DNA of 60,804 nucleotides, from assembly GCA_937858155.1 (NCBI GenBank), contig CALLYM010000101.1, positions 1-60,804 on the forward strand, read 5' to 3'. Positions within the stretch are counted from its first letter, which is position 1. Every line of letters begins with the position of its first letter. The position numbers and the translations under genes were made by a program. This DNA is from an uncultured Phycisphaerales bacterium (GTDB lineage: Bacteria > Planctomycetota > Phycisphaerae > Phycisphaerales > UBA1924). The notes beneath the pieces were generated by a model, which worked only from the letters and a program-made list of their open reading frames with translations, was not told where the DNA came from and did no database searches. Shown piece after piece: positions 853 to 35,813 of this stretch.

Positions 853-2151
853 ATGGCGACGTTTGCCTATGAAGCACTGAACTCGTCCGGCAAGCCCCAG
901 AAGGGCACGATCGAGGCCTCCACGCAGGAAGAGGCGATCCAGCGGATCAAGGGCCAGGGCCTGTACCCGTCGTCGATCAAGGAGCAGGCGGGCAAGAAGG
1001 GCGCCGCCGGCGCGGGGGGCGACAAGGCGCTCAAGGGCGACGCCGTCAAGCTGAAGCGCAAGCGCGGCAAGGGCGGGCGCGTGAGCACGAAGATGCTGAC
1101 GACGTTCACGCGTCAGTTGTCCACGCTGCAGGACGCGGGCCTGCCGCTCCTCCGGAGCCTCCAGATCCTGGAGGCCCAGCAGAAGCCTGGGAAGCTCAAG
1201 AACGTGCTGATCGGCGTGGGAGAAGAGGTGGAGGGCGGCGCATCACTCTCCGAGGCGATGAGCAAGTTCCCCAAGTGCTTCGATCACCTGTACGTCAAGA
1301 TGATCAACGCGGGCGAGATCGGCGGCGTGCTGGACATCATCCTGCAGCGTTTGTCTGAGTTCATGGAGAAGAGCCAGCGCCTCAAGAGGCGCATCCGCGG
1401 TGCGATGGTGTACCCCATCGCTGTCATTACGATCGCGACGATCATCCTGTCGGCGATCATGATCTTCATCATCCCGAAGTTCGAGGAAATCTTCAAGGAC
1501 TTCGGCGTGGCGCTGCCGGCGCTCACGATGTGGCTCATCAATACCAGCCGGTGGTTTGCGGGCAAGGTGCCGGGGCAGACGATCCCCGGCGTCTTCCTGG
1601 TGCTCCCCGCGCCCGTCATCTTGTTCTTCGGGTACAAGCTCATCCGCATGACCGGGCCCGGGAGGGCTGTGACGGACTGGATCTTCCTGCACATGCCGAT
1701 CTTCGGGCCGCTGGTCAGGAAGAGCGTGATCGCGCGGTTCACGCGCACGCTGGGCACGCTGGTCTCGGCGGGCGTGCCGATCCTGGAAGCGATCAAGATC
1801 ACCAAGGAAACGAGCGGCAATCACGTGTTCGAGAAGGCCCTTCAGAAGGTGCACGACAGCATCCGCGAGGGCGAGGGCTTCGCCCAGCCGCTGCGTGAGA
1901 GCAAGACCTGCGACGCCATCGTCGTCAACATGATCGACGTGGGTGAGGAGACGGGCGAGCTGGACGCGATGCTCATGAAGATCGCGGACAACTACGACGA
2001 AGAAGTGGACGTGGCGGTGGCGTCGCTCGTGTCGCTGCTCCAGCCGCTGATGGTCGTGGTGCTGGGCGTGTTCGTCGGAACGATCGTCATCGCGATGTTC
2101 CTGCCGCTGGTCAAGATGATTTCGTCGCTCCAGGGCGGCGGCGCGGTGTAA
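853..2151 (+). CDS. gspF: Type II secretion inner-membrane platform protein GspF/PilC
   Basis: Polytopic inner-membrane protein that couples the ATPase to pseudopilin polymerisation. It has 432 residues, about the usual family length. The N-terminus (MATFAYEALNSSGK) is the standard GspF opening. Two T2SSF repeats are visible, one around residues 85-210 (FTRQLSTLQDAGLPLLRSL) and one around 285-410 (FTRTLGTLVSAGVPILEAI), each followed by hydrophobic helices. A short Ala/Gly/Lys-rich linker (about residues 48-78) sits between the N-terminal segment and the first repeat and looks lineage-specific. It lies between the ATPase and the first pseudopilin in a same-strand run, the order seen in GspE-F-G operons. 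Confidence 0.96.
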   Translation: MATFAYEALNSSGKPQKGTIEASTQEEAIQRIKGQGLYPSSIKEQAGKKGAAGAGGDKALKGDAVKLKRKRGKGGRVSTKMLTTFTRQLSTLQDAGLPLLRSLQILEAQQKPGKLKNVLIGVGEEVEGGASLSEAMSKFPKCFDHLYVKMINAGEIGGVLDIILQRLSEFMEKSQRLKRRIRGAMVYPIAVITIATIILSAIMIFIIPKFEEIFKDFGVALPALTMWLINTSRWFAGKVPGQTIPGVFLVLPAPVILFFGYKLIRMTGPGRAVTDWIFLHMPIFGPLVRKSVIARFTRTLGTLVSAGVPILEAIKITKETSGNHVFEKALQKVHDSIREGEGFAQPLRESKTCDAIVVNMIDVGEETGELDAMLMKIADNYDEEVDVAVASLVSLLQPLMVVVLGVFVGTIVIAMFLPLVKMISSLQGGGAV

Positions 2152-2197: not shown

Positions 2198-3265
2198 TTG
2201 GCAACACTTCGGGCACACACGCGGCGTGCGGGGAGCGCCTTTACGGTCATCGAGTTGATCGTGAGCATCGCGATCATCGCGCTCCTGCTGGGCATCGCGG
2301 TCTTCGGCGTCCACACGCTGCACAACGCGGCGCGTGGCACGGTGGACCTCACGATGGTCAACCAGATCGGGACGGGCGTGGACAAGTTTGAAGAAGCGGT
2401 GGGGTTCTTGCCGCCGCTGGTGAAGGACCGTCTCCCGACCGGGCTGCCCAGGGCCCTCGCGCAGCTCACCTACCCGCGGACCGCCACACGCAACGCCATC
2501 CTCGTGTACGAGCCGGACGACCAGAACGACATCGACGCGCTCAACACACTGCCCACGAGCCTGGGCACGATCGACACGAACCCGTTCCTGAACGAGTACC
2601 GGTTCAGCGAGTCGTCCCTCGCGTTTTACCTTGTCGGCGCTCTGGACGTGCGGTACGACGAGAACCGCGCACCGGACGTGGTGATCGATGGCGTGAAGGG
2701 CCCGGGCCTCTTCAAGCCCAACCACGACGGGGAATTCGGCGTGCCGAGGAAACTGCTGGACCCCAGCGACCCCAAGGCCGTGGGCGCGCCCATGGAGTCC
2801 TTCGTGAACATCGGCGGCGGCGGAGCGAAGCTCGCGTACCCCGACCAGAACGAGCCGCGGTCGGTCAAGCTCGTGGACGGGCGCGGCGTGCCGATCCGCT
2901 ACTACCGCTGGGTCAACGGCAACTGGTTCCCCAACCAGGCGGCGCCCAACGCGAAGTTCGAGGTACGCACGCTGGCCGACCTGAAGGTCCCGCGCCTTGT
3001 CGGGCGCTTCACGCCGGATGTTTCTCAGCCCATCGCCGACCAGACGACGTTCCCGACGCCGGCGGATCGCGACATCCGCCAGAACCCTGCGTTGCGGAGC
3101 GCGACATGGGCGATCGTCGCCGCGGGTCCCAACGGCCTGTTCGGGGACGAATCGCTCACGGTGATCGCGCAGGCGCTGGGCAAGCCCAACGACGCGGCGC
3201 AGGAAGCGAAGCTGCGGAGCGAGGCCGAGAAGGACAACATTGTGAGGGTGGGCGATGGCAAGTAA
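2198..3265 (+). CDS. Enlarged pseudopilin, GspG-like position (prepilin N-terminal motif)
   Basis: A pseudopilin-class protein of 355 residues; classic GspG has about 140. The start is TTG at 2198, preceded by a purine-rich AAAGGCGGG. The N-terminus has a basic leader, then AFTVIELIVSIAIIALLLG: cleavage is predicted after Ala14, with Phe at +1 and Glu at +5, followed by one hydrophobic helix. The next segment (about residues 33-70, aligned ELxVSIAII helix then DKFEEAVGFLPP) resembles the GspG amphipathic region. The remaining ~280 residues form a large domain I do not recognise. Its 3' end overlaps the next pseudopilin by 11 bases, implying coupled translation. It is probably inserted in the inner membrane and processed by a prepilin peptidase not present in this window. 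Confidence 0.88.
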   Translation: MATLRAHTRRAGSAFTVIELIVSIAIIALLLGIAVFGVHTLHNAARGTVDLTMVNQIGTGVDKFEEAVGFLPPLVKDRLPTGLPRALAQLTYPRTATRNAILVYEPDDQNDIDALNTLPTSLGTIDTNPFLNEYRFSESSLAFYLVGALDVRYDENRAPDVVIDGVKGPGLFKPNHDGEFGVPRKLLDPSDPKAVGAPMESFVNIGGGGAKLAYPDQNEPRSVKLVDGRGVPIRYYRWVNGNWFPNQAAPNAKFEVRTLADLKVPRLVGRFTPDVSQPIADQTTFPTPADRDIRQNPALRSATWAIVAAGPNGLFGDESLTVIAQALGKPNDAAQEAKLRSEAEKDNIVRVGDGK

Positions 3266-4448
3266 GCACCTCAAAGACCCCTCGCGCCGCGCGTTCTCGC
3301 TCATCGAGATGATGGCGGTCCTCGCGATCCTCGCCATCCTCCTGGCGCTGGGCGTGCCCGCGATCAAGAGCATGATCTATTCGTCGGAGCGCTCGCTCGC
3401 GGAGAATCAGCTGCGCGTGGCGATGACGGCGGCGCGTGACGCGGCGGTGCGATCAGGCGGTGGGGACGGGGCGGCGGTCTTCTTCTACGCCGACGGACGC
3501 ACCACCATACTCCCGTGCGTCAGCGTCGGCCGCATCAATGATGTCGTGCACCAGGGCGCCACCCTCACGACCACAATCGTGGAGCGGGAAGTCTTCGTGC
3601 CTGTCGAGGGCATCGAGCCCATCCGCCTTCCCCAAGGCTGGAATGTGCGGGGTTACACAGCCCCGGGCGTGATCGCGACCGGCACCGCGGCGACCGACAA
3701 CACCGACGGACTCTACGACTGCAACAGCATGCCGCTGACCATTACCGGCGACGGGCACTGGGTCTTCCCAGAAACCGAGTTCATCGATTGGGATGCTCTT
3801 CGGACCAACGCGCAGGGGTACAACGAGGGGTGGAAGCGGCAGACGTTCCTTGTGCGGTTCGAGGCGGGGACGGGCAATGCGGCGATCAGCGAGCGTCGCC
3901 CTGTCTTGGTGCTGGACCCGCTGCCCATCTCCACGGGGGAGGGCTTCCGCTCCCGCCCGCCCTACAACAACGACCCGGCCCTGGGGCCTAACGGCGAGAA
4001 CGACGTGACGCAGGCCGCGTCGCTGGAGTCGTTCGTCCGGCAGGCGACTTCTAAGCCGTTTCTGCTGGGCGGCAACCCATCGTCCCTGGTCAAGCTGCTG
4101 GGCGACATGTCGCCCGACACCGTGCTCGCGACGCCCGTGAGCGAAGTCGCGCTGTACGACGAGCAGCGTCTGGGCGGCGCGATCGGCGCGACGCGTCTCA
4201 ACGCGACCACCAAGTGCCTCTACGGCGACCCCGCGGACCGCACGGTGATCCCCGACGAGCCCACGATCGACACGACGCTCTTCGCCGGTGTCGCGGTGGA
4301 TGAGATCCAGCAGCGTATCGACGCCTACATCACGCGCGACGCGTCGGGCAACCTGCCCGACCCATCGGTCGCGATGGAGGCCCGCGTGTTCACCGTCCAG
4401 CGTTACATGGGACAGATGCAGGAAGTCAGCCCGGAGGTTGAAGAATGA
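3255..4448 (+). CDS. Enlarged pseudopilin, GspH-like position
   Basis: Pseudopilin of 397 residues against about 170 for typical GspH. The leader ends SRRA, then FSLIEMMAVLAILAILLALG: predicted cleavage after Ala13, Phe +1, Glu +5, one N-terminal helix. The following segment (ENQLRVAMTAARDAAVRSG) matches the GspH/FimT pattern in which the helix is followed by QLRxAxxxARxEAVRRG. The C-terminal domain is far larger than in GspH and has no motif I recognise. It starts inside the previous gene and ends with an ATGA overlap with the next one, so the genes are tightly coupled. Role inferred: a minor pseudopilin of the tip or initiation complex. Confidence 0.88.
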   Translation: MASKHLKDPSRRAFSLIEMMAVLAILAILLALGVPAIKSMIYSSERSLAENQLRVAMTAARDAAVRSGGGDGAAVFFYADGRTTILPCVSVGRINDVVHQGATLTTTIVEREVFVPVEGIEPIRLPQGWNVRGYTAPGVIATGTAATDNTDGLYDCNSMPLTITGDGHWVFPETEFIDWDALRTNAQGYNEGWKRQTFLVRFEAGTGNAAISERRPVLVLDPLPISTGEGFRSRPPYNNDPALGPNGENDVTQAASLESFVRQATSKPFLLGGNPSSLVKLLGDMSPDTVLATPVSEVALYDEQRLGGAIGATRLNATTKCLYGDPADRTVIPDEPTIDTTLFAGVAVDEIQQRIDAYITRDASGNLPDPSVAMEARVFTVQRYMGQMQEVSPEVEE

Positions 4449-5620
4449 ACTCTGTTGCCCGCACATCTTCCGTCGTCCGCGCGTTCACCCTTGTCGAGGT
4501 GCTTGTCGGCATCCTCATCCTGGGCCTGGGCCTGCTTGGCCTTGGCGCCATCTACCCGGCGGTTGCGATCCAGCAGCGCGACGCGGGGGACGCGGTGGAA
4601 GGTCAGGCCGTTGCGGACGCGGCGGAGGGCTTCTTCAAGGGCAACCAGTGGATGAACCAGCGCTCGACCGTCCCGGTCGTGCAGGGCGAGGACCGCCAGG
4701 TGCAGGGCTGGGAGGCATCGCTGGTGGTGGGCGACGGCGCGAAGGGCAGGGGCTGGCGGTCGATCGAAGGGATCGGCGCCACCAACTTCAATCCCCGCAT
4801 GCTCGTCCTGGACAGCGCCACGGGCGACCTCACGCTCGACACGCCCTCGGTCCCGGCGGGGTTCATCCTCCCGCAGACCGGCAGCACCGAGGCGACTCTC
4901 ACTGTGTACGACCGTCTCATCCCCGCGGTGGCGCCGGGCGGGCCGACCGCCTTCGGCAACGCCCGTTTCGTGTGGGACGCCGTGGCCCGGCGCATCAACC
5001 GTGACAACGCGGGCCGCCTGAGCAACCAGGCCGACAACCGCACCAACATCGAGAAACTGCAGGACGACGTGCAGGTCGCCGTGTTCGTCCGGCGCCTTGA
5101 CCCCGGTATCCGCAACCGCGCGGGGGCGACCTACGTGCCCGTCGCGCAGACGGCCGAGGGCCTCGCCGCTCTCGACGGCGTGGGCAGCCCGACCGGGGGC
5201 ACCCCCACGGGAACGCCCAACTACGCGCCCATCCGCCTGATGGAGATCATGCCGTGGGACGGCGCCTTCCCCGCGGGCGGCACGGGAATCCCCGCGAACG
5301 CGATGATCCGCTATGTCCACCTTTCCAACGACACCGCGGCGGAAATGACCGCGGGCATGACGGACGCGAACATCGACGCGGCGATCGGGCAGGTGGGCCA
5401 GAAGTTCGCCCTCGCCAACGGCGCGGTTGTGACGGTGATGAGCGTTCAGCAGGCGACGGTGGCGGGCGAGCAGCGCAGCATCCTGCGGATCGACCCCGAG
5501 GTCCCAAACTGGGCGTTCCATGTGCGCCCCTCGGGCGCGGTGGGCATCCCCGCGTTGTTCACGGCGCAGCCCCCCGTGGCTGTCCGCGTGTTCACGCTGA
5601 GGGACGGAGGAGCTAACTAA
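4445..5620 (+). CDS. Enlarged pseudopilin, GspI/PilV-like position
   Basis: Pseudopilin of 391 residues against about 120 for GspI. The leader ends VVRA, then FTLVEVLVGILILGLGLLGLG: predicted cleavage after Ala13, Phe +1 and Glu +5. FTLVEVLV followed by a Gly/Leu-rich helix is the GspI/PilV signature. The rest is a large, mostly beta/loop-like domain without a recognised family. Its start codon overlaps the previous stop (ATGA), and its stop is two bases before the next start. A strong GGACGGAGGAG sits in its own 3' end and serves the following gene. It is inferred to be a minor pseudopilin of the initiating tip complex. Confidence 0.88.
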   Translation: MNSVARTSSVVRAFTLVEVLVGILILGLGLLGLGAIYPAVAIQQRDAGDAVEGQAVADAAEGFFKGNQWMNQRSTVPVVQGEDRQVQGWEASLVVGDGAKGRGWRSIEGIGATNFNPRMLVLDSATGDLTLDTPSVPAGFILPQTGSTEATLTVYDRLIPAVAPGGPTAFGNARFVWDAVARRINRDNAGRLSNQADNRTNIEKLQDDVQVAVFVRRLDPGIRNRAGATYVPVAQTAEGLAALDGVGSPTGGTPTGTPNYAPIRLMEIMPWDGAFPAGGTGIPANAMIRYVHLSNDTAAEMTAGMTDANIDAAIGQVGQKFALANGAVVTVMSVQQATVAGEQRSILRIDPEVPNWAFHVRPSGAVGIPALFTAQPPVAVRVFTLRDGGAN

Positions 5621-5622
5621 CA

Positions 5623-7569
5623 GTGAGCCACGCCGCACTCCCATCCCCTGATGAACGCCCACGCACCCCGCGTCGCCCCGCATTCACGCTGCTTGAGCTC
5701 CTTGTCACCATCGGCGCGGTCGCCGTGGTGGCGGTGGGGCTGGCCGCGGTCTTTGGCGCGGTGGGCGACGCGGTGGCGACAGGGCGCCGCGTCAGCCGCA
5801 TGACCCAGTACTCGCGCATGATCGAGGCGCAGCTGCGTAAGGACTTCTCGTCCATGACGCGCGACGGGTTCCTGGCCATCCGCCAGCAGTACGCCGACCG
5901 CAACGGGGATGGGGTGTTCACGCTGGCAGACGACCGGGTCCGCGTGGGCGAGGCCGACACCACGCCCCGCCCGCGCCGCGTCGACGAAATCATCTTCTTC
6001 GCCCACGGTGATTACGTGAGCGACCGCCCGCCCCTGCCGGACGGCAACTGGGTCGCGCGCAGCGACACCGCGATGATCTACTACGGGCACGGTGAGCGGG
6101 TGAATCCGGACCTGGACAATGCGATCTCCTCCAAGCCCTACGCCGAGCCCAAGGTGAACTGGGCCAAGGACGCGACCGCCCTGAACAACGCCGACAACCT
6201 GGGGCGTGCCGGCGGTTTCAACCGCTTTGCGGGCAAGTGGACGTTGCTGCGCCAGGCCACGCTCCTCAAGCCCGTGCCCGCAATGTCGAGCGCGCCGGCC
6301 TTCTCCATCTTCGGCCTGCCGCTCAATTCCCCGCTGCTGCGGGACAAGGACAACCAGATCGCCGGTCAGCCCGCCGCGGCGAGCGTGTTCCGCGCCATCA
6401 ACAGCGCGCGGGGCGTGGGGGAACCGTCGGCGGACGTGGTCTCCAACCCGCCCATCAATGAGTACCTCTGGTACGTGACCAACACGCAGACGCCCAACGC
6501 GCAGGCCAACTACACGGGCACCGCATTCCACTCCCCCATGCTCACCTCGGGCACGGTGGACATCGCGACCACCAGCCTGGAAGAGATCAAGCAGCGTCTG
6601 CTGGGCTCGGGCAACGGCTTCCTGCCCAGGGACTACAACCCCGCGGGCCTGCCGCCCACGAGCGTGTCGAGCACTCTTGCACCGGCCACGAACGCGCGCC
6701 AGTCGCCCCCGGGTGAAGTAGACGTCCTGCAGGCGTGGATGGACAACGCGTTCCCCGCGCCCAGCGCTCAGATCGATGACCAGCTCTGGGGCACGGCGTA
6801 CCCGTCCGCGGGGCAGTACGTCAAGGAAGTCGTCCCCGGCTCCCGCATCCGCTGTGAGGAACGCGCCGTCGACGTCCTGGAAGCCATCGGCGGCGTGGGC
6901 ACCACCGCCCCGCAGCGCCGTGAGGGCGCGATGACGCGGGCCGACCGCCTCATGCTCCCTATGCACAACCTGGCGCCGGCCTGCAGCGAGTTCATCATCG
7001 AGTGGTCCTTTGGGCAGATGGACAACACCGGCGCGACGGTGTGGCACGGGCTGGTGTCGCCCTCGGTCGCGGCATCGGCTACGTCCAACCCGCGCCCGTA
7101 CGACGATACTCCCATCGCCAGCGGCGGCAAGGCCCCACTCGTGTACCGCATCCCGTTCCGCGGCCCATTCCGCAACGCAACCGAGCCGCGCGAGGGCACA
7201 TACACCGTGCCTGAACGCCTGATTTACGGCCGCCAGATCGTCGAGGCGAACCCGCCCGTCCCCAACGACGACATCCTCACCCTCACGTCCTACTTCGGGC
7301 AGGTGGACCCGGTCTTCAACCCGGACCACGCTGATACCAACACGGTGTTTGATACCACCACCGCCGGCAACGGGCTGTACCCGTTCCAGTCTGACGACGC
7401 CAACCGGCGGGACGCTGCGCCCTTCAGCTCAGGCTCGCTCCGCCCGGAGTGGCCCTGGCCCACGCTCATCCGCGTGCGGGTGACGCTGGTGGACCCGGTG
7501 GACCCCAAGCCGGAAACCGAGCAGACGTTCGAGTACGTGTTCCAGGTGCCCAGCCGGGACGGCACGTGA
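5623..7569 (+). CDS. Enlarged pseudopilin, GspJ-like position
   Basis: Pseudopilin of 648 residues against about 200 for GspJ. GTG start at 5623 with a near-perfect ribosome site (GGACGGAGGAG) eight bases upstream. The leader is 20 residues ending RRPA, then FTLLELLVTIGAVAVVAVGL: Phe +1, Glu +5, one helix. The next segment (QYSRMIEAQLRKDFSSMTRDG) matches the GspJ pattern in which a helix precedes a conserved first strand (xxRLQRxLERDLRQ). About 550 further residues are unassigned; they look extracytoplasmic and are Pro/Asn/Thr-rich. It sits immediately before the GspK-like gene, as gspJ does in classical operons. Confidence 0.87.
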   Translation: MSHAALPSPDERPRTPRRPAFTLLELLVTIGAVAVVAVGLAAVFGAVGDAVATGRRVSRMTQYSRMIEAQLRKDFSSMTRDGFLAIRQQYADRNGDGVFTLADDRVRVGEADTTPRPRRVDEIIFFAHGDYVSDRPPLPDGNWVARSDTAMIYYGHGERVNPDLDNAISSKPYAEPKVNWAKDATALNNADNLGRAGGFNRFAGKWTLLRQATLLKPVPAMSSAPAFSIFGLPLNSPLLRDKDNQIAGQPAAASVFRAINSARGVGEPSADVVSNPPINEYLWYVTNTQTPNAQANYTGTAFHSPMLTSGTVDIATTSLEEIKQRLLGSGNGFLPRDYNPAGLPPTSVSSTLAPATNARQSPPGEVDVLQAWMDNAFPAPSAQIDDQLWGTAYPSAGQYVKEVVPGSRIRCEERAVDVLEAIGGVGTTAPQRREGAMTRADRLMLPMHNLAPACSEFIIEWSFGQMDNTGATVWHGLVSPSVAASATSNPRPYDDTPIASGGKAPLVYRIPFRGPFRNATEPREGTYTVPERLIYGRQIVEANPPVPNDDILTLTSYFGQVDPVFNPDHADTNTVFDTTTAGNGLYPFQSDDANRRDAAPFSSGSLRPEWPWPTLIRVRVTLVDPVDPKPETEQTFEYVFQVPSRDGT

Positions 7570-7627: not shown

Positions 7628-10600
7628 ATGACGATGCAGCATGCGCGCAGTGTGGAGTTGGTGAAGGTCGCGGACACAAGGCCCCGTGCGCTGCCGGGCG
7701 TTGTGTGCGCGCTGGCGGGTGCGCCGGCGGGCTGGCAGGTGCGCCCCGATCCGCGTCGGCGCGGGTCGTTCCTGGTGCTGGTGGTGGGCACGCTCGCGCT
7801 GCTGGCGGTGATCACGATCGTGTACGTCGCACTGGGCAACCAGGACAACCGCACGCGCGCCGCGGTCAAGAAGCGCGAGCAGCTGGAGGACGTCCCGTCC
7901 AGGATGGCCGAGTACATCGCGGGCGTGGTGGGCGACGACGCGGTGGCGATATCCAACGAGCGCAACCCCGACCCCAGCATCTCCGCCGATGACGAGCCCA
8001 ACGCGCTCCTGGAGTTCCGCGAAGCGGTCGACGCCCCGGGCGTGTGGTACGACGTGTACTCCAACCCGCTCCAGCAGATCACGACGCTCCCCGGCGGCGA
8101 TACCGGCACGATCGCGTGGAACCGCGCGAAGTTCAACCCGGTCGGCACCGTCCGGATGGACTATGACCTGCAGAGCGCCGACGCGCGCGACCGCCTGCCG
8201 GGCCCGATCACCGGCGTCCTTGAGCTCTACAACAACGTGCCGCCCAGCGACCCGTGGCTCGCGGCGTCGGAGCCATCGTTCCTCAACTTCGCGGGAACGC
8301 CCGTGGGCGACCCGGACCGCATGTACCTGTACCAGCGGGACTGGTTCTCGATCTCGAACTTCGCGCCCGACGGCGGGTTTGTCAACCTTGCCAACCTGCG
8401 CCCGGAGTACTCGGGCTTTAACGCGACCGCCAACGAAATGCGCGGCATCACCATCGGCACGACCAACCCGGTCGCGCGGAAGACACTGTACGACGACGCG
8501 GGGCTGGCGTTCAATGACACGCCGTGGGGCGTTGCCGTCGACAACAACAACGCCCAGAACCGCCCCTTCTTCTGGACGATGTACCAGTCCAACGCGTTCC
8601 GCCCCGCCGCGATCGGCAGGAACGAGCCCGCCAACCAGACATGGGCCAACCCGTCCTTCCGCAAGTACCAGTGGGTGGACGCCGACGGCGACGGCATGCT
8701 GGACTCCCGCATCTTTGAGATGAAGGACGCGGCCGGGAACGGCGTGTTCACTGACGTGCTCGCGTTCGGCGGCAAGTACCGCTGGTTCTTCGGCGTGCGC
8801 GCCGTGGACATGTCGGGACGTGTGAACGTGAACACCGCGGGCGACCTGGCGGGCATGCCCCTGTCGCCCTACGAGGCGGGATTGCCGGTGCCACCGGGCC
8901 AGACGCCGAACCCTGCACGCCAGACGCCGCTGCTGACGTACCGCGTCGGCTCCACGCCCGCCGATATTGACCTTGAGCGCATCCTGCGCATGACCGACAT
9001 GGTGTCGGATTCTGTCGCGTCCGGCGGCTCGTGGGACTGGACGTCCATCGACCCCACCTACACGAACGAGAACCTGTTCAACATCGGGTCGGGCGCGTAC
9101 CAGGCCCTGCGCGTGGCGATCAACACCGGCGTGATTCCAGAGGGTGAAGACCCGCAGGGCTCGGGCCCGGTCTACGCCTTCGACGGCGCGGTAGACCAGA
9201 CCGGCAACAACTCCCTGTGGGATCTGTGGAACCGAATGACGGGCGGCAACGAGGACGCCTTCCGGAACACGTGGCTCTCAAACTATCCGCAGTTTTCCAC
9301 GCTCGCAACGACCGCCACCAGCCCGTGGGACTTTACCCGCCAGCGCCGCGCGTACTACGTCGGTCAAGCCAGCAAGCTCTGGGGCGAATACTCCTTCGGC
9401 CTGCCGCTGACCCAGGACGCGGTGGTCACCGGTTCCCGGCCCTCCTTCGGTGTGGACGACCTTGCGGAGCTCCTGACCCGCGAGGGCGTGAACGACCCGA
9501 AGGTGATGAGCGCACTCGAGGTCGTGCTCAGCGCCCGCGCGATCGACCAGAACCCGCCCGGGTTGCCGTTGTCCTCTGTGCTGCGCTCCCAGCGCACGCT
9601 GGACCAGGAAATGGGTGTGGGCCGTGCTCGGTACGACGCGTCCATACCCGGCCAGGGAGACGCCGCGGTGCCCGCCGCCGGGAGCGCCCGGGATCTCGCG
9701 CTCTTGCAGATGGCTTATGACCCACGGAAGAGCCTGACGCCCATCAGTTCCGCACGCGCGATGCGGTCGGGTTCTCGCGTGCTGGACCGCGACCCCGCGT
9801 TCCAGCAGAACAACGGGAAGATCGAGGGAACCAACGCGACCAACCCCATCATGACCGGGGCGGAATTGACCAGCCTCGCGGGCCCCAGCGCGACGGAACT
9901 CAGCACCGACGACCTGAAGGTGGACCTGCGCGCGTCGCTGGCGCAGACGCTCACACCCCGCGTACGCCAGAACCCCAACCCCACCGCGTCGCCGATTGCA
10001 CCAGTCAATTGGACCAAGGAACTGGTTGAGGACCAGCAACGCGAGGCCGCGATGCGCAGCATCTTCCGCGCGTACGCCGACGCCCTCGCGCCCTACTCCG
10101 ACATCCGGGCGGCATGGCCCACAGTCCCTCCGTTCACGGGGATGGACCAGACGCTCCGCACGCTCTTCTACGGCTACAACGGGCCGGAGACGGCGCTGCT
10201 CTCCGCGGCCCACATGGCCGTCAACCTGCGGGACATGGTGGATACCGATACGCGGCCCACCATCGCCACGGTCGCGCTGAGCGGACAGGCCAACTTCCTG
10301 GGCACCAGCGGCAGCGGCACGCCCGGCACGATCAGCTCGCGCCGTGCCGTAGCCCCACCCGCCACCGGCACCATCCCCTACGCCTACCCCGCCTGGCTCG
10401 ACGCCGACCCCGCGGTAACCCGGCCCGACAGGGACATGTTCCGCCTGTCCATCGAGAGCACGCGCCTCGCACCGGGCAACGCCAACACGATGGCCCCCGC
10501 GGTGAACGTCTACGGCATCGAGCCCCAGCCATTCCTGACGCAGGTGGTGACGATGGCTGCGTATATCGATGACCCGCTGCAGGACGGGCATGCCGCCGGC

Positions 10601-13600
10601 ACTGACTTCGTCCTGAATGGCACAATCCCCAACGAGGGCGATCCGCTGTCGGGAGACCTGCTCTTCCGAATGACGGCCTTCACGCTCACGAACCCCTTTG
10701 ACCGGCCTGTGACGCTCTCTCCCGCGTGGCTGAGCGACGCGGAGAACCCGGTGCACGCACGCCCCACCACGGGAAGCCTCCCGGCGGACGCCGGGCAGTA
10801 CGTGCCGATCAGCTACATCAACGGCTTGCCGCGTGAGCAGCGGATCGACACCACGGGCGACTATTACTACATCCAGTGGGGCGACAAGACCTATTACCTG
10901 GGCGAACTCGACCACGTCACCAAGGTCAACACCGCGCCCACGCAGCCCAATGTCCCGTACGTGACGGGCGTCCGCGGCGAGTACATTCCGGGATCATCGG
11001 CGGACCAAACCGACATGGTGGTGGTGAAGCCCATCACCATCCAGCCCGGGCGCACAGTGGTGTGCTACGCCATCAGCCGTCCACCCCGGGCGATTTATGA
11101 AACACTCAACACCCGGTTCTCCGGGGACGATGGCTTCCCCCTGCCCACGACCACGACCGGTCAGAAGGGCTGGGTCGAGAGCCTGCTGAAGGGTCAACTC
11201 GCCGAAACGATCGGCAACGAGAACGTGGACCTCCGCTGGATCGGCCTGCTCTCACCGGGCGATGCCAAGTCCGCGGACGGCGGTCAGATCCTGGCCGCGG
11301 AGGACAAGTTCTACGACCCCATCCCGCGCACCGCGAGCCACTCGGCGGAGATCACGGCATCGCCCGGCATCGGCCGCACCGTGAACCTCTGGCGCACCGT
11401 GCGGAGCGGAGATGAAGCCCTGCCCGTCACGAACGTGGACCCGGGCGCGATGTGGAACGGGACGGAGATCATCGTCACGCCCCAGCCCCGCGTACGCCCG
11501 ATCAACGTCGCGTCCAACGACCAGCTTGTGGACCGCCTGCGCCTGCCCGATCCGTCGGACGGCGACGCGGGCCTCAACAAGATGGACGTCAAGGCTGCCG
11601 ATGGCGACAACCCCATCGCGGGGTCGGGCCTCGATCCGACCGGTAGCGAGGACCGTCCCTACGCGCTCACGCTGTGGGCGCTCGCCTCCCGACGCAACGA
11701 CCGCAAGAACGCCGACCCCGCGACCACACTCGCGGACCGCATCCCGAGCGATGTGATCCCCGCCTACTGCATCGAGCCCAAGCACCCAAATGTGGACGAG
11801 GACTGGAACGTCCAGGACGTCTCGACACTGCTGGATGGCGGCGGCACGTTCAATGTGGGTGACTTTGACCCCGAGGGCAGCATCGGCACTGTTGCGGGCA
11901 AGGGCATCGGCAAGATGCGCGTGCCTGACTGGATCAACACGATGATCGCCGGTGGCACGATGTACGACACAGACGATCCGCGCCGTGCGCCAAAGTTCCG
12001 CACCAATGGGACGGAGATGATCGACGAGCAGAGCACCGTCACTACCAACATCACATTCGGCGGCCCCAACGCCCGCACGTACGACCAGATCTACCCGCAG
12101 ATCAACTCCGCGCCCGCGGCCTACGACGACCCCGAGAACCCCAACCCCGACGTCGAAGCGATGGAGCTGGGCGTGAACAACCAGCTGATCAGCCGCGTAC
12201 GGCTTGCCGACGCGCTCTTGCCCCTGGGCATCGGCCCGCAGGAAACGCCCTACATCGGCAACGCCAACGCACCGCTGGCGCAGAACGATCCGGCGGCGTT
12301 CAACGTCCGCTACACCACGCTCGGCGAGGCCCTTGCTATCGCGCAGGGCTACGACATCAGCCTGCTGGCCGTCCCCGCCACCACCGGGCCCAACCCCAAC
12401 CCGGACCAGGCGCTCCTGTGGGGCCCACGTTCCCTGTACGCGCCGAATACGAGCGCCATCCCCGAGCACGAGATGCTCTTTGACCGGGGCAACCTCCACC
12501 TGGACTGGTTCGTGCCCTTCGTGGACATCAACAACACCGGCGCGGCCAACGCATTCACCTACAACGCCGGCACGGACCATCGTGTTGGCCAGGGCATCCC
12601 CGCCGCGCTCAGCGTCCTCGAGCAGTTCACTGTGACGCCCGATGGTGTCGCGCCCAGCCTGACGCGCGGTGTGCAGGGCCTGATCAACGTCAATACGGCG
12701 ACCCTTGCTGCGCTCCGCAGCGTGCCGTTCTTCGCCCCGCCCGACATTGCGGGCACGCTGCCCACGGGCACGGGTTATCCAGCCGTCGGTGCGTCCGAGG
12801 GCTGGTGGAATGGAGTGACCGGTGCCGCGGCGGACCCGATCACCTCCGCCTACCCAGCAAACACCGCCGCGCTCTCACCGTTTATCACAAACTACAACGC
12901 GCCAGACATGAAGTATGACCTGGCGGCGGTGCTCGACGCCTACCGCCAGAAGATCAATGTGCCCAGCCGCCGCGTGACGGGCGAGGCTCTGGCGGCCGCG
13001 CCCACAATTGGTCTGGACGCCATCAACGACGTCCGCGAGTTCCGCGACGACGACCCGTCCGACGAAACGACCGGCCCGGCGCGATCCGACTACGCGGACA
13101 TCGCCAGCCTCTCCGACCTTGTGGGCCTGCACTCTGTGGGCGAGCTCCTCGCCGTGCGGCAGCGGCACACTCAGTCTTCGGCCGCCGCGTGGAACGCCGA
13201 CCAGCCCAACTACTGGTCATTCCCCCTGGGCATGGACTGGATGGGCTTCGACAAGTTCGCACCCGGCGACTACACGTCCGCCGATGTCGAGAGTTCCACC
13301 GCCGCGATCGAGACCTACTCCACCACGCCCGCACAGCCGCTCGTGCCGCCCGGGCCCACCGTGCGATCCCAGCCCACTGTCGGCAATGAGTACGACGAGA
13401 AACTCAGCATCGCCGCCGCGGCCCTGGGCACGACCAGCGTCCGCAGCGATGTCTACGCCGTCTGGTTCGTGGCGATGGGCTTCCAGCCTTCCGACGTGGA
13501 CGCGTGCATCAGCCCCGACGACCCGCTGGTTCCCAGCGTGCAGCGCCGGTTCCTGATGATCCTGGACCGCAGCAACGTGACCAAGAAGGGTCAGAAGCCC

Positions 13601-13633
13601 AAGATCCTCCTGCTCAAGGAAGTGCCGCTGTAA
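7628..13633 (+). CDS. Giant GspK-like minor pseudopilin (2001 residues)
   Basis: A very large protein at the gspK position of the operon, preceded by GAGGAG. Its N-terminus has a 46-residue leader ending PRRRG, then SFLVLVVGTLALLAVITIVY, a pilin-type helix that lacks Glu at +5. Absence of Glu5 is characteristic of GspK. Two INVNTA-type signatures resembling the GspK helix-hairpin-helix start are visible: RVNVNTAGDLAGMP near residue 397 and GLINVNTATLAALRSVPFF near residue 1684, about 1290 residues apart. Typical GspK has around 330 residues. The long centre is rich in Asp, Asn, Pro and Thr and matches no domain I know; it may be an insertion inside the GspK fold or a fusion. Expected location: tip of the pseudopilus, with the bulk outside the inner membrane. 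It is the last gene before a terminator. Confidence 0.85.
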   Translation: MTMQHARSVELVKVADTRPRALPGVVCALAGAPAGWQVRPDPRRRGSFLVLVVGTLALLAVITIVYVALGNQDNRTRAAVKKREQLEDVPSRMAEYIAGVVGDDAVAISNERNPDPSISADDEPNALLEFREAVDAPGVWYDVYSNPLQQITTLPGGDTGTIAWNRAKFNPVGTVRMDYDLQSADARDRLPGPITGVLELYNNVPPSDPWLAASEPSFLNFAGTPVGDPDRMYLYQRDWFSISNFAPDGGFVNLANLRPEYSGFNATANEMRGITIGTTNPVARKTLYDDAGLAFNDTPWGVAVDNNNAQNRPFFWTMYQSNAFRPAAIGRNEPANQTWANPSFRKYQWVDADGDGMLDSRIFEMKDAAGNGVFTDVLAFGGKYRWFFGVRAVDMSGRVNVNTAGDLAGMPLSPYEAGLPVPPGQTPNPARQTPLLTYRVGSTPADIDLERILRMTDMVSDSVASGGSWDWTSIDPTYTNENLFNIGSGAYQALRVAINTGVIPEGEDPQGSGPVYAFDGAVDQTGNNSLWDLWNRMTGGNEDAFRNTWLSNYPQFSTLATTATSPWDFTRQRRAYYVGQASKLWGEYSFGLPLTQDAVVTGSRPSFGVDDLAELLTREGVNDPKVMSALEVVLSARAIDQNPPGLPLSSVLRSQRTLDQEMGVGRARYDASIPGQGDAAVPAAGSARDLALLQMAYDPRKSLTPISSARAMRSGSRVLDRDPAFQQNNGKIEGTNATNPIMTGAELTSLAGPSATELSTDDLKVDLRASLAQTLTPRVRQNPNPTASPIAPVNWTKELVEDQQREAAMRSIFRAYADALAPYSDIRAAWPTVPPFTGMDQTLRTLFYGYNGPETALLSAAHMAVNLRDMVDTDTRPTIATVALSGQANFLGTSGSGTPGTISSRRAVAPPATGTIPYAYPAWLDADPAVTRPDRDMFRLSIESTRLAPGNANTMAPAVNVYGIEPQPFLTQVVTMAAYIDDPLQDGHAAGTDFVLNGTIPNEGDPLSGDLLFRMTAFTLTNPFDRPVTLSPAWLSDAENPVHARPTTGSLPADAGQYVPISYINGLPREQRIDTTGDYYYIQWGDKTYYLGELDHVTKVNTAPTQPNVPYVTGVRGEYIPGSSADQTDMVVVKPITIQPGRTVVCYAISRPPRAIYETLNTRFSGDDGFPLPTTTTGQKGWVESLLKGQLAETIGNENVDLRWIGLLSPGDAKSADGGQILAAEDKFYDPIPRTASHSAEITASPGIGRTVNLWRTVRSGDEALPVTNVDPGAMWNGTEIIVTPQPRVRPINVASNDQLVDRLRLPDPSDGDAGLNKMDVKAADGDNPIAGSGLDPTGSEDRPYALTLWALASRRNDRKNADPATTLADRIPSDVIPAYCIEPKHPNVDEDWNVQDVSTLLDGGGTFNVGDFDPEGSIGTVAGKGIGKMRVPDWINTMIAGGTMYDTDDPRRAPKFRTNGTEMIDEQSTVTTNITFGGPNARTYDQIYPQINSAPAAYDDPENPNPDVEAMELGVNNQLISRVRLADALLPLGIGPQETPYIGNANAPLAQNDPAAFNVRYTTLGEALAIAQGYDISLLAVPATTGPNPNPDQALLWGPRSLYAPNTSAIPEHEMLFDRGNLHLDWFVPFVDINNTGAANAFTYNAGTDHRVGQGIPAALSVLEQFTVTPDGVAPSLTRGVQGLINVNTATLAALRSVPFFAPPDIAGTLPTGTGYPAVGASEGWWNGVTGAAADPITSAYPANTAALSPFITNYNAPDMKYDLAAVLDAYRQKINVPSRRVTGEALAAAPTIGLDAINDVREFRDDDPSDETTGPARSDYADIASLSDLVGLHSVGELLAVRQRHTQSSAAAWNADQPNYWSFPLGMDWMGFDKFAPGDYTSADVESSTAAIETYSTTPAQPLVPPGPTVRSQPTVGNEYDEKLSIAAAALGTTSVRSDVYAVWFVAMGFQPSDVDACISPDDPLVPSVQRRFLMILDRSNVTKKGQKPKILLLKEVPL

Positions 13634-13702: not shown

Positions 13703-15331
13703 TCACAGGCACGGGCCGCCGCTGAAGACCAGCAGCAGAGAATCGATGTCGGAGGTATCCGGGAAGAACCCGTCGTTGTTGAAGTCGATATCGCCGCAGC
13801 TGGGGTCGTTGGAGCACGTTCCGCCGCTGAAGACGCTCAGGAAGTCGTCGATGTCTGCCGTATCCGGAGAAAGCGTGTCGTTGTTAAAGTCAAGAGAATC
13901 GCAGCAGTTCGCAACCGTGATCTCCGCCTCGTCGCTGAACGTGCCTGCGCAGAGATTGGTCACCTGCGCGCGCAGGCGCGCACCGCTCACCGGTTCTGAA
14001 ATGGTCAGTTCGGCGGCTGTCGCACCCGAAGCCAAGCCCACACCCGCGACGGGCCCGTCCCCAATGTCCACCCACACAGCGCCGTCAAAGGCCTGCCATT
14101 GATAGGTGAGTGGGGGACTACCACCTGCCGCGACGGTAAGGTGCGCGTCACTGCCGGTGCAGACGGCCGTGTTGCCAGGCTGCAGAGTGAGCGTGGGCAC
14201 CGTTGACGGTCCCCACTCCGCGATGCGGGACGCGGGTGCTCCGCCGGCATGACCGAAGAACCCAGCGGTGAACACCGACCCGTTCGGAATCACCGCGAGA
14301 GCGTTGGCGTTGAAGTCCAGGCCGTCACCCAGCGCATGCCAGGTGGTCCCATCCCACATGGCGGCCCGAAGGGCGGGCACGCCACCCGCCTCGGTAAAAG
14401 AACCTGCTGCAAAGAGGTCCTGCCCCCGTACCGCGAGCGCGGAGACCGTGCCGTTCGTGCCGACGTCCAGTGGGGTCCAGGACGTGCCGTCAAACCGGGC
14501 GATGTGCGCTAACGGCGTCGCGGCCGAAGCAGTGAAGGATCCGCCCGCGACCACCTCTCCCGATGGCAGCAGTGTGAGGGCGTTCACCTGGCCGTCAAGC
14601 CCGTCGCCGATCGCGGTCCAGGAGGTGCCGTCCCACCTCGCCACGTCCAATGCAGGGACACCGCCCGCGGTAAAGAAGCCTCCGCCGGCGATCACACCGC
14701 CCCCGGGCGTCACCGCAAGTGCGTAGACGACGCCGTCGAGGCCGGAGCCCATCGCGTGCCAGTCGGTGCCGTCCCAGCGGGCAATGAAACTCGCGGGCAC
14801 GCCACCCGCATTCTGGAAAACCCCGCCCGCCACGAGGTCGCCGTCGGGCAGCGGGACGAGCGCGTTGACCCATGCATCCATGCCCGCCCCCAGAGGGTGC
14901 CAGGCCGAGCCGTCCCACCGCGCAATGTAACTCGCGGGCGATCCACCCGCCACCAGGAAGTACCCGCCCGCCGCGAGGTCCCCCGATGTCATCGGTGTGA
15001 GCGCGTAGACGAAGGGGTGCGGGAGCCCCCCCATGGCGCTGCCGAGCGTCGCCCAACCGCCGGTCGCGGGTTCGTACGCCGCGAGCCTTGAGACACCCAT
15101 GCCGCCCGCGAGGGTGAAGTCTCCGCCGACGATGAGCAGCGCGTGCTGCGGACCGGCACCGTCGGGGTCCCACGGCGTGAGTGACGTCACAAATCTATTC
15201 ACCCCTGGCGTGCCCACGCCGGACAGCCACTGTTCGGGGCACTGCCCGTGGGCGCGCAGCGATAACCCGCCGGCGGCGCAGAGCGCCGCGCACCAGGTCA
15301 ATCCGGCGCGATGGCGGCGGTATCGGAACAC
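13703..15331 (-). CDS. Secreted WDGT-repeat beta-propeller-like protein with Ig-like and GC-type dockerin domains
   Basis: A predicted exported protein of about 542 residues. After an Arg-rich start and a hydrophobic segment ending AHG there are about seven repeats of roughly 45 residues with the pattern ARWDGT-W-ALG-G-[30 residues]-AGGxFxxAGG, likely a beta-propeller. Then follows an Ig-like domain (about 90 residues, with LTYQWQAF), and finally two copies of a calcium-loop-like motif (DFNNDTLSPDTADIDDFL and DFNNDGFFPDTSDIDSLL), each ending VFSGG and framed by Cys. The terminal pair is the planctomycete GC-type dockerin-like tag. The start is uncertain: GTG at 15331 has GGGGAG upstream, while an in-frame GTG at 15361 would add ten residues. 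Function unknown; a surface or matrix protein is inferred. Confidence 0.82.
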   Translation of the reverse strand: MFRYRRHRAGLTWCAALCAAGGLSLRAHGQCPEQWLSGVGTPGVNRFVTSLTPWDPDGAGPQHALLIVGGDFTLAGGMGVSRLAAYEPATGGWATLGSAMGGLPHPFVYALTPMTSGDLAAGGYFLVAGGSPASYIARWDGSAWHPLGAGMDAWVNALVPLPDGDLVAGGVFQNAGGVPASFIARWDGTDWHAMGSGLDGVVYALAVTPGGGVIAGGGFFTAGGVPALDVARWDGTSWTAIGDGLDGQVNALTLLPSGEVVAGGSFTASAATPLAHIARFDGTSWTPLDVGTNGTVSALAVRGQDLFAAGSFTEAGGVPALRAAMWDGTTWHALGDGLDFNANALAVIPNGSVFTAGFFGHAGGAPASRIAEWGPSTVPTLTLQPGNTAVCTGSDAHLTVAAGGSPPLTYQWQAFDGAVWVDIGDGPVAGVGLASGATAAELTISEPVSGARLRAQVTNLCAGTFSDEAEITVANCCDSLDFNNDTLSPDTADIDDFLSVFSGGTCSNDPSCGDIDFNNDGFFPDTSDIDSLLLVFSGGPCL

Positions 15332-15507: not shown

Positions 15508-16323
15508 TTATGTGCACACGCCTCCGCTGAAGACAGAGAGCAGGGCGTCGATGTCCTGCGTGTCGGGGAAGAGGCCGTCGTTGTTGAAGTCAACATCGCC
15601 ACAGGCGGTGGTGGGGCAGACCCCGCCCGCGAAGACGCTCAGGAAGTCGGTGATGTCCTGCGTATCCGGGAAGAGCGTGTCGCGGTTGAAGTCGATGCTG
15701 TCGCAGGCAGGGCCGATCGGGCCGATCGTGATTGTCTGGTAGCCCAGGATCATCGGCGTGACATTTTCGTTGAGCTCGATCGTGAAGTTGTACGACGAAA
15801 GGTTGTCAAACCCCCACGAGCCGAACGCGCCCAGAATATTGACGGACGACAGCGTGGGGTCGTTGCCCACCGGCGGCACGCTGTCAAAGGTGCGGCTGAA
15901 CGCAACGCCGTAGTTGTTGGGCGTCATGTTGAGCGGGCATTGTGTGTCGATGTCGGTGCCTTGGGAGATGAAGAACCCGTCCACGCGTGGGTCGTTGTTC
16001 CGGAGGACGAAGTAGGCGGGGAGGGGTGGGGTCGTCCGGAGGCTTCTGGTGACGTTGCCGATAGTCAGGGAGAATGTCGCAGCGCTGAAGCGGTAGCCGC
16101 GTGTGACACCGGGCAGGTTGGGGCTGTCGAGGTAGTCGCTGGAATCCAGGTCGATGGTCATCGTGGCGGGAGAGCCGGCCGCGATCCCGGCCCATGTCCC
16201 CGTTGAAAAACCATTGCTCTCGACCGTGCCCGTGACCACGACGCGCACATCCGTGCTTGCAGGCGCGGCGGAGGCATACACACACGCGGCGGTGCAGGCG
16301 ATCATTGGGAGGTGAAGTCGCAT
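15508..16323 (-). CDS. Secreted protein with C-terminal duplicated GC-type dockerin
   Basis: Exported protein of 271 residues. ATG at 16323 has GGAG eight bases upstream; an upstream in-frame GTG at 16332 is less likely. A short signal peptide (MRLHLPMIACTAACVYASA) is followed by about 175 residues with a beta-rich look (VVVTGTVESNGFSTG, MTIDLDSSDY). The last ~65 residues hold two DFNxDxLFPDTQDIxxFLxVFxGG repeats with flanking Cys. Only the tail can be matched to a family. Its neighbour downstream, ending at 13703, carries the same tail. They are separated by about 175 bases and may be transcribed separately. Confidence 0.82.
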   Translation of the reverse strand: MRLHLPMIACTAACVYASAAPASTDVRVVVTGTVESNGFSTGTWAGIAAGSPATMTIDLDSSDYLDSPNLPGVTRGYRFSAATFSLTIGNVTRSLRTTPPLPAYFVLRNNDPRVDGFFISQGTDIDTQCPLNMTPNNYGVAFSRTFDSVPPVGNDPTLSSVNILGAFGSWGFDNLSSYNFTIELNENVTPMILGYQTITIGPIGPACDSIDFNRDTLFPDTQDITDFLSVFAGGVCPTTACGDVDFNNDGLFPDTQDIDALLSVFSGGVCT

Positions 16324-18054: not shown

Positions 18055-18675
18055 TCAGCGGCGGCGGCGTGCCGTCAGCAGGCCCGCAAACGCGCACACG
18101 CCCGCCACGCCCGGAGCGGGCACGAGCGTAATGACGCGGATGTCGTCGGTCGCGGAGGTGGTGTTGAACTGGAACCCAACGCGGAAGGTCGAGACGCTCA
18201 GGAAGAAGAACTCGTTGGAGATGACCTCCATGCCGCGCGCGACGTTGTCGGCGTAGATCGTGCTTGGTGCGCCGACCCAGTCGGACGCGTTCAGCTCCGG
18301 GCGCAGCACGATGATGCCGATGACCGGCTGATCAAAGTCCATGAACCCCTGGTAGAGGCCGGCGCTGCTGCCGACGGGGTCCGAATAGAGGTAGTGGCTG
18401 GAGACCACCGTGCCCGCGGGGATAACGCCCGGCGTGAGCGACCCGACGCTCGCGTACGTCCCCGGGAGGGTGGCGTTCACGCTGAGGGGCGCGGTGAGGG
18501 TGAAACTGGAAACTTCGTTCCACGCATGGGTGGTGGTGTTGCTCTCCAGGGCCCCCAGCGCCATGGAGGGCGGCGGCGGGATGAGCAGCACGTCGCCGCC
18601 GCTGGCCACGATGGACGCCTGCGCAAGGGCGGGCACGAGCGCAGCGGCGCTCACGAAAGCGATGGTGCGGGGCAT
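18055..18675 (-). CDS. Secreted protein with PEP-CTERM-like RRRR tail
   Basis: A 206-residue exported protein. ATG at 18675 is chosen because it begins a good signal peptide (MPRTIAFVSAAALVPALAQA) and has GAGAGAGGA upstream; the frame stays open further upstream, but there it is Cys/Arg-rich and not coding-like. The C-terminus is PAPGVAGVCAFAGLLTARRRR: a P-x-PG motif, a short hydrophobic span and four Arg, the Phycisphaerae form of a PEP-CTERM-like sorting tag. The central domain (residues 21-185, with TYASVGSLTP and FRVGFQFNTT) looks beta-rich but is not assigned. Two other proteins in the window carry the same kind of tail (ending at 47816 and 55742). Confidence 0.82.
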   Translation of the reverse strand: MPRTIAFVSAAALVPALAQASIVASGGDVLLIPPPPSMALGALESNTTTHAWNEVSSFTLTAPLSVNATLPGTYASVGSLTPGVIPAGTVVSSHYLYSDPVGSSAGLYQGFMDFDQPVIGIIVLRPELNASDWVGAPSTIYADNVARGMEVISNEFFFLSVSTFRVGFQFNTTSATDDIRVITLVPAPGVAGVCAFAGLLTARRRR

Positions 18676-18864
18676 GGGGTGTCCTCTCTCTCGATCTCTC
18701 GTTACCGAACACCGCAGGGCCTGGGTGGCCGGGCGGCAGCAGCAGCATAACGCGGAACGCCCGGGATTGGTGCATGAAACCCTGAAAAAGCCTGGAAGAA
18801 CGCCAAGCGGGTCATGGATTACAGGACTGGGCAATGCCCGTCTGTCCGCACGCTACGCTGGCCC

Positions 18865-35520: not shown

Positions 35521-35813
35521 AGGGCAAAGAAGTTGCAATCCTCGCAGTCGCGGGCGCAGTGGTCTCTGGTCTGGTCGTCTACGCCGCTGTCAGGTTTGTT
35601 CTCGGCCGACGAGCGGCCAAGCGCGCCGACGGGGGCCGGTGGGCGTCGTACGGAATCGAGCCGCGCGCACTGGGTGAGGTGAAGCCCAACGAGGACAACC
35701 CGCCGCGCGGTGGTATCGGCGGATATCAAGGCCGCCGATGTAAGCAAAGAAAAGCCCGTCCGATCCTCCCTCGGGATCGGACGGGTCGTGGTATGTGTCG
35801 GTTGATGAATTAG
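35517..35813 (+). CDS. Small single-pass membrane protein
   Basis: A 98-residue protein whose start overlaps the previous stop (ATGA). There is one N-terminal TM helix (about residues 7-28: AILAVAGAVVSGLVVYAAV), then a basic, Gly/Arg-rich tail. The last ~25 residues are encoded by the terminator hairpin of the converging gene at 35755-35785, and the stop lies inside the 3' end of that gene. The C-terminal part may be read-through or affected by a small indel; the N-terminal ~65 residues are the reliable part. Function unknown. Confidence 0.6.
   Translation: MKGKEVAILAVAGAVVSGLVVYAAVRFVLGRRAAKRADGGRWASYGIEPRALGEVKPNEDNPPRGGIGGYQGRRCKQRKARPILPRDRTGRGMCRLMN
35747..35785 (-). terminator. Terminator of the serine-hydrolase gene, inside a converging reading frame
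   Basis: CCCGTCCGATCC and GGATCGGACGGG form a 12-base-pair stem (35755-35766 with 35774-35785). On the minus strand it is followed by GCTTTTCTTTG. It lies 25 bases after the stop at 35810 and overlaps the end of the small membrane protein gene. Confidence 0.8.

Follow-up and report, generated by a model that had tools for sequence, protein, structure and literature searches.

The 2001-aa protein encoded by the last gene of a pilin gene run in an uncultured Phycisphaerales bacterium (assembly GCA_937858155.1, contig CALLYM010000101.1) probably fills the GspK slot and caps a type IV pilus machine, at about five times the ordinary size and with a large head that would contact the ligand of the pilus. 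We give this reading a probability of roughly 0.8; tip position, ligand binding, and the use of retraction are predicted by analogy. The GspK pilin fold of this giant is read as split, as it is in every GspK, with an alpha-domain that has gained a lamin-tail-like module and has grown in its loops throughout. The window, i.e., the whole stretch of DNA that was analyzed, is 60,804 nucleotides long, and the features of the cluster and of the giant are listed in Table 1. No description of such giant GspK proteins or of lamin-tail pilins was found in the literature.

Table 1. Coordinates of the pilus cluster and of the elements of the giant protein in the window (residue numbers refer to the 2001-aa protein)
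Feature	Position	Strand	Evidence
3' part of PilB/GspE ATPase, cut by contig end	1..783	+	TIGR02533/TIGR02538 matches
PilC/GspF platform protein	853..2151	+	PF00482, E 6e-64
Pilin p1, 355 aa, Glu5 present, GspG-like N-terminus	2198..3265	+	Sequence, NCBIfam
Pilin p2, 397 aa, Glu5 present	3255..4448	+	PF07963, NCBIfam
Pilin p3, 391 aa, Glu5 present, PilV/GspI-like N-terminus	4445..5620	+	NCBIfam
Pilin p4, 648 aa, Glu5 present, GspJ-like N-terminus (weak)	5623..7569	+	NCBIfam
Giant GspK-type minor pilin, 2001 aa	7628..13633	+	ORF, translation, GAGGAG before ATG, homologues in relatives
Long prepilin leader, residues 1-46, end RRRG	7628..7765	+	Sequence, in-frame starts
Pilin alpha-1 helix, residues 47-108, Leu for Glu at position 5	7766..7951	+	Profile matches
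Conserved N-terminal block DPWLA..EP..DW..ISN	8243..8407	+	Family alignment, match to relative
Invariant DADGDGMLD loop, residues 351-359, calcium-loop-like by sequence	8678..8704	+	Invariant columns
Motif 1, DMSGRVNVNTAG, residues 394-405, entry of first SAM/HhH-like module (A)	8807..8842	+	Global profile alignment to DAAAKININ of own GspK
Module A helix, residues 604-620, GVDDLAELL, corresponding to AELELV of ordinary GspK	9437..9487	+	Profile alignments
Eroded middle NxN site DLKVDLRA, residues 762-769	9911..9934	+	Profile alignments
Module B helix, AAHMAVNLRDMVDTD region, residues 849-882	10172..10273	+	Alignment; helix 50-67 of half-protein model
Lamin-tail-domain-like beta-sandwich broken by loops, residues 960-1307	10505..11548	+	Structural matches, Pfam LTD in relatives
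Motif 2, GLINVNTA, residues 1684-1691, entry of last SAM/HhH-like module (C)	12677..12700	+	Profile matches
C-terminal pilin beta-strands, residues 1913-2000	13364..13627	+	Family alignment, profile matches, half-protein model

The giant protein and its relatives

The source genome is a 3.8-Mb draft that is 83% complete, and homologues of the giant were found in 49 of 61 related genomes. Of 269 relatives found in a scan of 85,000 species genomes, 80 were kept, and the named relatives come from Phycisphaerales and other Planctomycetota. Downstream of the helix, complete relatives extend for 836 to about 2,000 aa, and genome searches add forms of up to 2,682 aa. Large relatives also exist beyond the class, where other planctomycete families have ORFs 860 to 2,000 aa long.

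The N-terminus of the giant is prepilin-like, with an expected cleavage site at RRRG/S47-FLVL and a profile match to the N-terminus of canonical GspK. The fifth residue past this site is Leu51, in agreement with the sequence-only reading, which had described a pilin helix lacking Glu5. GspK normally lacks Glu5, and Leu likewise stands at this position in the canonical GspK that the genome encodes. The alpha-1 helix matches residues 8 to 74 of canonical GspK and helix 13-68 in the model of an 847-aa relative. The 46-residue leader is well above the usual length, despite the good ribosome-binding site before the ATG, and an alternative GTG start at 7739 would give a 9-residue leader. A DADGDGxxD loop, which is invariant in all aligned relatives, lies ahead of the hairpin that precedes motif 1; its form in the giant resembles a calcium-binding loop and may bind metal. 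At the other end of the protein, residues 1913 to 2000 are the most conserved block of the family, and their strands were modelled at a pLDDT of about 75 to 83.

Fold and family membership

The 2001-aa protein matched no Pfam or NCBIfam family even at an E value of 1, LTD, T2SSK, and NF037980 included, so its GspK assignment rests on its relatives. Among 48 of these, Pfam T2SSK was detected in 30, HHH_3 in 38, and LTD in 17, and the NCBIfam GspK model NF037980 matched 28, with the T2SSK and NF037980 matches lying below or near the cutoff. The AlphaFold model of the 847-aa relative, built from a 48-row alignment, reached a pLDDT of 85.5 and a pTM of 0.87. In a VIA-align comparison of this model with solved structures, four GspK/XcpX entries ranked first (Z, 16.0 to 16.4), with 249 of the 280 residues of 3CI0 chain K aligned to residues 40 to 845 of the model (Z, 16.4), and the next row, lamin tails over residues 427 to 537, fell to a Z of 6.7. 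Foldseek also placed GspK first, but at an E value of 0.03.

Residues 805 to 2001 of the giant, modelled alone, gave a weak model (pLDDT, 59.6; pTM, 0.71) in which core elements and the C-terminal strands are confident. Its top match, over 99 residues at a modest Z of 5.1, was the lamin A/C tail, which agrees with the relative; from the solved structures this weak model retrieved the lamin tail alone and not GspK. A profile search of PDB sequences returned HhH fragments only and no GspK chain. The first T2SSK match in the bacterium's own genome was a 229-aa ComEA-like HhH protein on contig C106, which is not a GspK.

The giant is GspK-type by fold and position and is not a member of the T2SSK/NF037980 sequence family. 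Because it has neither a sequence-family score nor a type II secretion system (T2SS) neighborhood, it is not filed as a T2SS GspK. The GspK-like identity proposed in the sequence-only reading is upheld by gene position, by collinear profile homology, and by the whole-length structural match of the short relative to GspK. A GspK-like fold around neither motif, which that reading had named as the outcome against itself, did not occur in the 847-aa relative, the giant itself having been modelled at residues 805 to 2001.

Distribution of the extra length

Comparison of the giant family with 48 short relatives of the 847-aa type gave one end-to-end profile match (816 columns; E = 1e-55), which was abolished in the reversed-profile control, where nothing was found. 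A local profile alignment that included a realignment step kept only the C-terminal part of the match, and the unrealigned version was used together with this control. Relative to the 847-aa protein, the giant has 1,147 additional residues, which are distributed along the whole chain in 72 runs with alignment-dependent exact borders, the longest run being 66 aa.

Such a pattern might reflect nearly neutral loop growth in a tolerant environment, without a binding function. In favor of this explanation, P, T, N, and G are more frequent among the extra residues, 54% of the inserted residues versus 15% of the core residues were modelled at low confidence, and all pilins of the operon grew. However, columns shared by 70% or more of the family hold 618 of the 1,147 inserted residues, and the family alignment shows conservation in several of the inserted blocks. 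Since about half of the inserted residues thus occupy columns common to most of the family, much of the growth of the giant is old and has been kept. Drift would not keep conserved inserts, and we therefore regard neutral growth as doubtful.

Gene cluster and pilus machine

The giant is the last gene of a run comprising an ATPase, PilC, four Glu5 pilins, and K, and the contig of the window begins inside the ATPase gene. The cluster of the relatives contains PilB, PilC, and PilT. At the 47 loci with enough flank, PilC lies upstream of K in all 47, PilB in 46, and PilT within reach in 27, and the order PilB-PilT-PilB-PilC-pilins-K was found in all five longer loci. PilT in the relatives has a model score of 445 bits over the cutoff. 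In relatives (e.g., L106:8259-10112 and 11458-13182), PilT is flanked by two PilB-type ATPases, both with an MshE-like cyclic-di-GMP-binding N-terminal domain. PilM is present in all 26 family genomes, and the PilM ORFs of the family are about 590 to 830 aa long, roughly twice the usual size (e.g., G000:C190:4104-5027).

The four pilins upstream of the giant (2198-7569) are each two to three times normal size. With K lengthening from about 860 to 1,590 aa, the median summed length of the four pilins goes up from near 1,020 to 1,580 aa, in species that are not independent samples. The T2SS pilins of the bacterium's own genome are of ordinary size, so the enlargement of the pilins is not a genome-wide trend.

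The E-F-G-H-I-J-K-like gene order, the GspK-type family matches, and the presence of secretins in the genome could also point to a second type II secretion pseudopilus, in which the giant would be a genuine T2SS GspK serving to expel folded exoproteins. This is unlikely, as no T2SS L, M, C, or D/secretin gene follows K within the window, a separate, complete T2SS with an ordinary-size GspK of 459 aa is encoded on contig C65, and the relatives have PilT, a retraction ATPase, beside the ATPase and PilC genes. No pilus families came up among the genes that neighbor the other secretins of the genome. PilY1 (PF05567) gave no match in the bacterium's own genome or in 118 genomes of the phylum, and the control genomes were silent as well, so this result is not taken as absence. 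Because the relatives carry PilT and the T2SS lies elsewhere, the cluster of the giant is most likely a retractable type IV pilus and not the separate T2SS of the genome.

Two kinds of C-terminal sequence were also noted in the window. A 65-residue, two-repeat dockerin-like tag (CDSIDFNRDTLFPDTQDITDFLS...) is encoded at 15511-15705, 13709-13903, and 35813-36007, each on the minus strand. It has no NCBIfam match and occurs in at least 150 copies in the bacterium's own genome, with 64 to 86% identity and many at the ends of long ORFs, and it resembles a sorting or anchoring tag used across the genome. The protein encoded at 18055-18834 on the minus strand ends in VPAPGVAGVCAFAGLLTARRRR, which resembles a PEP-CTERM-type sorting signal and gave no match in an NCBIfam search.

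The two motifs and their modules

The two widely spaced INVNTA signatures described in the sequence-only reading are present in the giant, as DMSGRVNVNTA (motif 1, residues 394 to 404) and GLINVNTA (motif 2), with N400 and N1687 separated by 1287 residues. They are not due to chance, as the residues of both are invariant or nearly so in 21 aligned giants and 48 shorter relatives. In the model of the 847-aa relative, motif 1 stands directly after a beta-hairpin. The assumption that GspK has a single xNxNTA site proved wrong: the 459-aa GspK of the same genome carries both DAAAKININ and PGRLNVNTC, 230 residues apart in alignment numbering, and a normal GspK already has two xNxNTA-type motifs, one per SAM/HhH-like module entry.

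Three different global alignments of the ordinary-GspK profile with short giant-type relatives place DAAAKININ on motif 1, the AELEL helix on DELEL, the degenerate RLDLTVA on KMINLNTA, and PGRLNVNTC on motif 2. The middle site, which is KMINLNTA in short relatives and RLDLTVA in the bacterium's own GspK, has eroded to KVDLR in the giant. Because the alignments pair the sites one to one, with the entry motifs of the first and last SAM-like modules collinear with those of ordinary GspK, the two proteins are read as the same series of NxN modules, and neither motif of the giant as an extra copy. Motif 1 shows no significant local match to ordinary GspK (2.7%) and stands by collinearity in the global alignment, and off-diagonal module matches also occur between short relatives and ordinary GspK. 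The NxN modules resemble each other, and the mapping is therefore carried by site order and not by single local scores.

This resemblance is also what favors the origin of one motif from a duplicated GspK domain, which had been proposed for the second motif. Module C of short relatives matches module A of ordinary GspK with 96% probability, and the middle site of these relatives gives a weak match to the same module (10 to 21%), so that motif 1 could in principle be extra. However, the two motifs, the EL helix, and the middle site of the relatives map one to one on the bacterium's own GspK at an equal number of sites, motifs 1 and 2 fall on the first and last NxN sites of ordinary GspK, and the giant has just one alpha-1 helix and one C-terminal pilin sheet, which makes a duplication very unlikely. 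A single large domain inserted between the motifs is highly improbable, although the lamin-tail-like sandwich is one recognizable extra module that ordinary GspK lacks, since the sandwich explains part of the length only and is already present in the 847-aa relative, and since the dispersal of about 1,150 extra residues contradicts it unless the alignment artefactually spreads one insertion. The split GspK fold suggested in the sequence-only reading thus stands, as the split common to every GspK, and the one huge insertion given as its cause does not. The motifs of the giant are far apart because of the lamin-tail-like sandwich in the middle module and the growth of nearly every loop.

Comparison with known systems

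The giant belongs to the general kind of modular pilins. It shares with GspK/XcpX of the T2SS (3CI0, 5VTM, and 6UTU; T2SSK and NF037980) a helix that lacks Glu5, a pilin sheet interrupted by an alpha-domain built from NxN-entry SAM-like modules, and a place as the last gene after G-H-I-J type pilins, and its 847-aa relative matches the whole chain at a Z of 16. GspK/XcpX proteins are about 300 to 500 aa long and lie beside T2SS L/M/C/D genes, whereas the giant family, in a PilT-bearing cluster, ranges from 836 to 2682 aa, with the lamin-tail-like module and loop growth throughout. ComZ of Thermus thermophilus is likewise a tip-type pilin, closest in fold to GspK, with a domain inserted in the pilin sheet and a proposed role as a ligand-binding tip; its insertion is a single beta-solenoid of some 380 residues placed between the final two strands, whereas in the giant the alpha-domain itself is enlarged and contains a lamin-tail-like sandwich (PMC6561018). 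PilB and PilC of Streptococcus sanguinis also join a pilin module to extra modules that are likely exposed at the tip, but these modules are grafted at the C terminus, unlike in the giant, and the most extreme modular pilin in a survey has 860 residues (PMC8179133). Verru_Chthon cassette protein A (TIGR02600), which is also long (about 1,300 aa) and has the same kind of N-terminal helix, was rejected as the home family, as it had no match in the bacterium's own genome and only partial N-terminal matches in the phylum, where its first ~60 positions alone match planctomycete proteins and never over the cutoff.

Proposed function and implications

Both GspK and ComZ have domains inserted in the pilin sheet and are considered tip subunits (PMC8179133, PMC6561018), and it is by analogy to the GspK tip of the pseudopilus and the ComZ tip of the competence pilus that the giant is read as a filament cap with an outward-facing head. 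Its skeleton would be that of an ordinary GspK, with a long N-terminal helix without Glu5, a pilin beta-sheet that the final ~90 residues complete, and, between the two, an alpha-domain of consecutive NxN-type SAM/HhH-like modules, the INVNTA signatures being the entry sites of the first and last modules. Lacking Glu5, the giant would start or cap the filament jointly with the Glu5 pilins from the genes just upstream, and it would be pushed out by PilB and withdrawn by PilT, so that the large head with its sandwich and loops may meet whatever the pilus binds. The oversized pilin set probably serves the display of a large binding surface on an extendable, retractable pilus.

Planctomycetes extend wide (12 nm) pili-like fibres from crateriform structures, and these fibres bind dextran (PMC5394234). 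It would be a long shot that this cluster builds those fibres, with the giant cap as a polysaccharide-catching tip that PilT retraction delivers to the outer membrane; if true, the enlarged pilins would explain the width of the fibres. Named genes are now available to test for these unexplained dextran-binding fibres. The binding target of a pilus is set by its tip proteins, and standard family models miss giant proteins of this kind completely. In a phylum-level lineage, the smallest-copy and best-characterized tip subunit has grown to up to about 2,700 residues, with its fold kept and its partner pilins enlarged in step.
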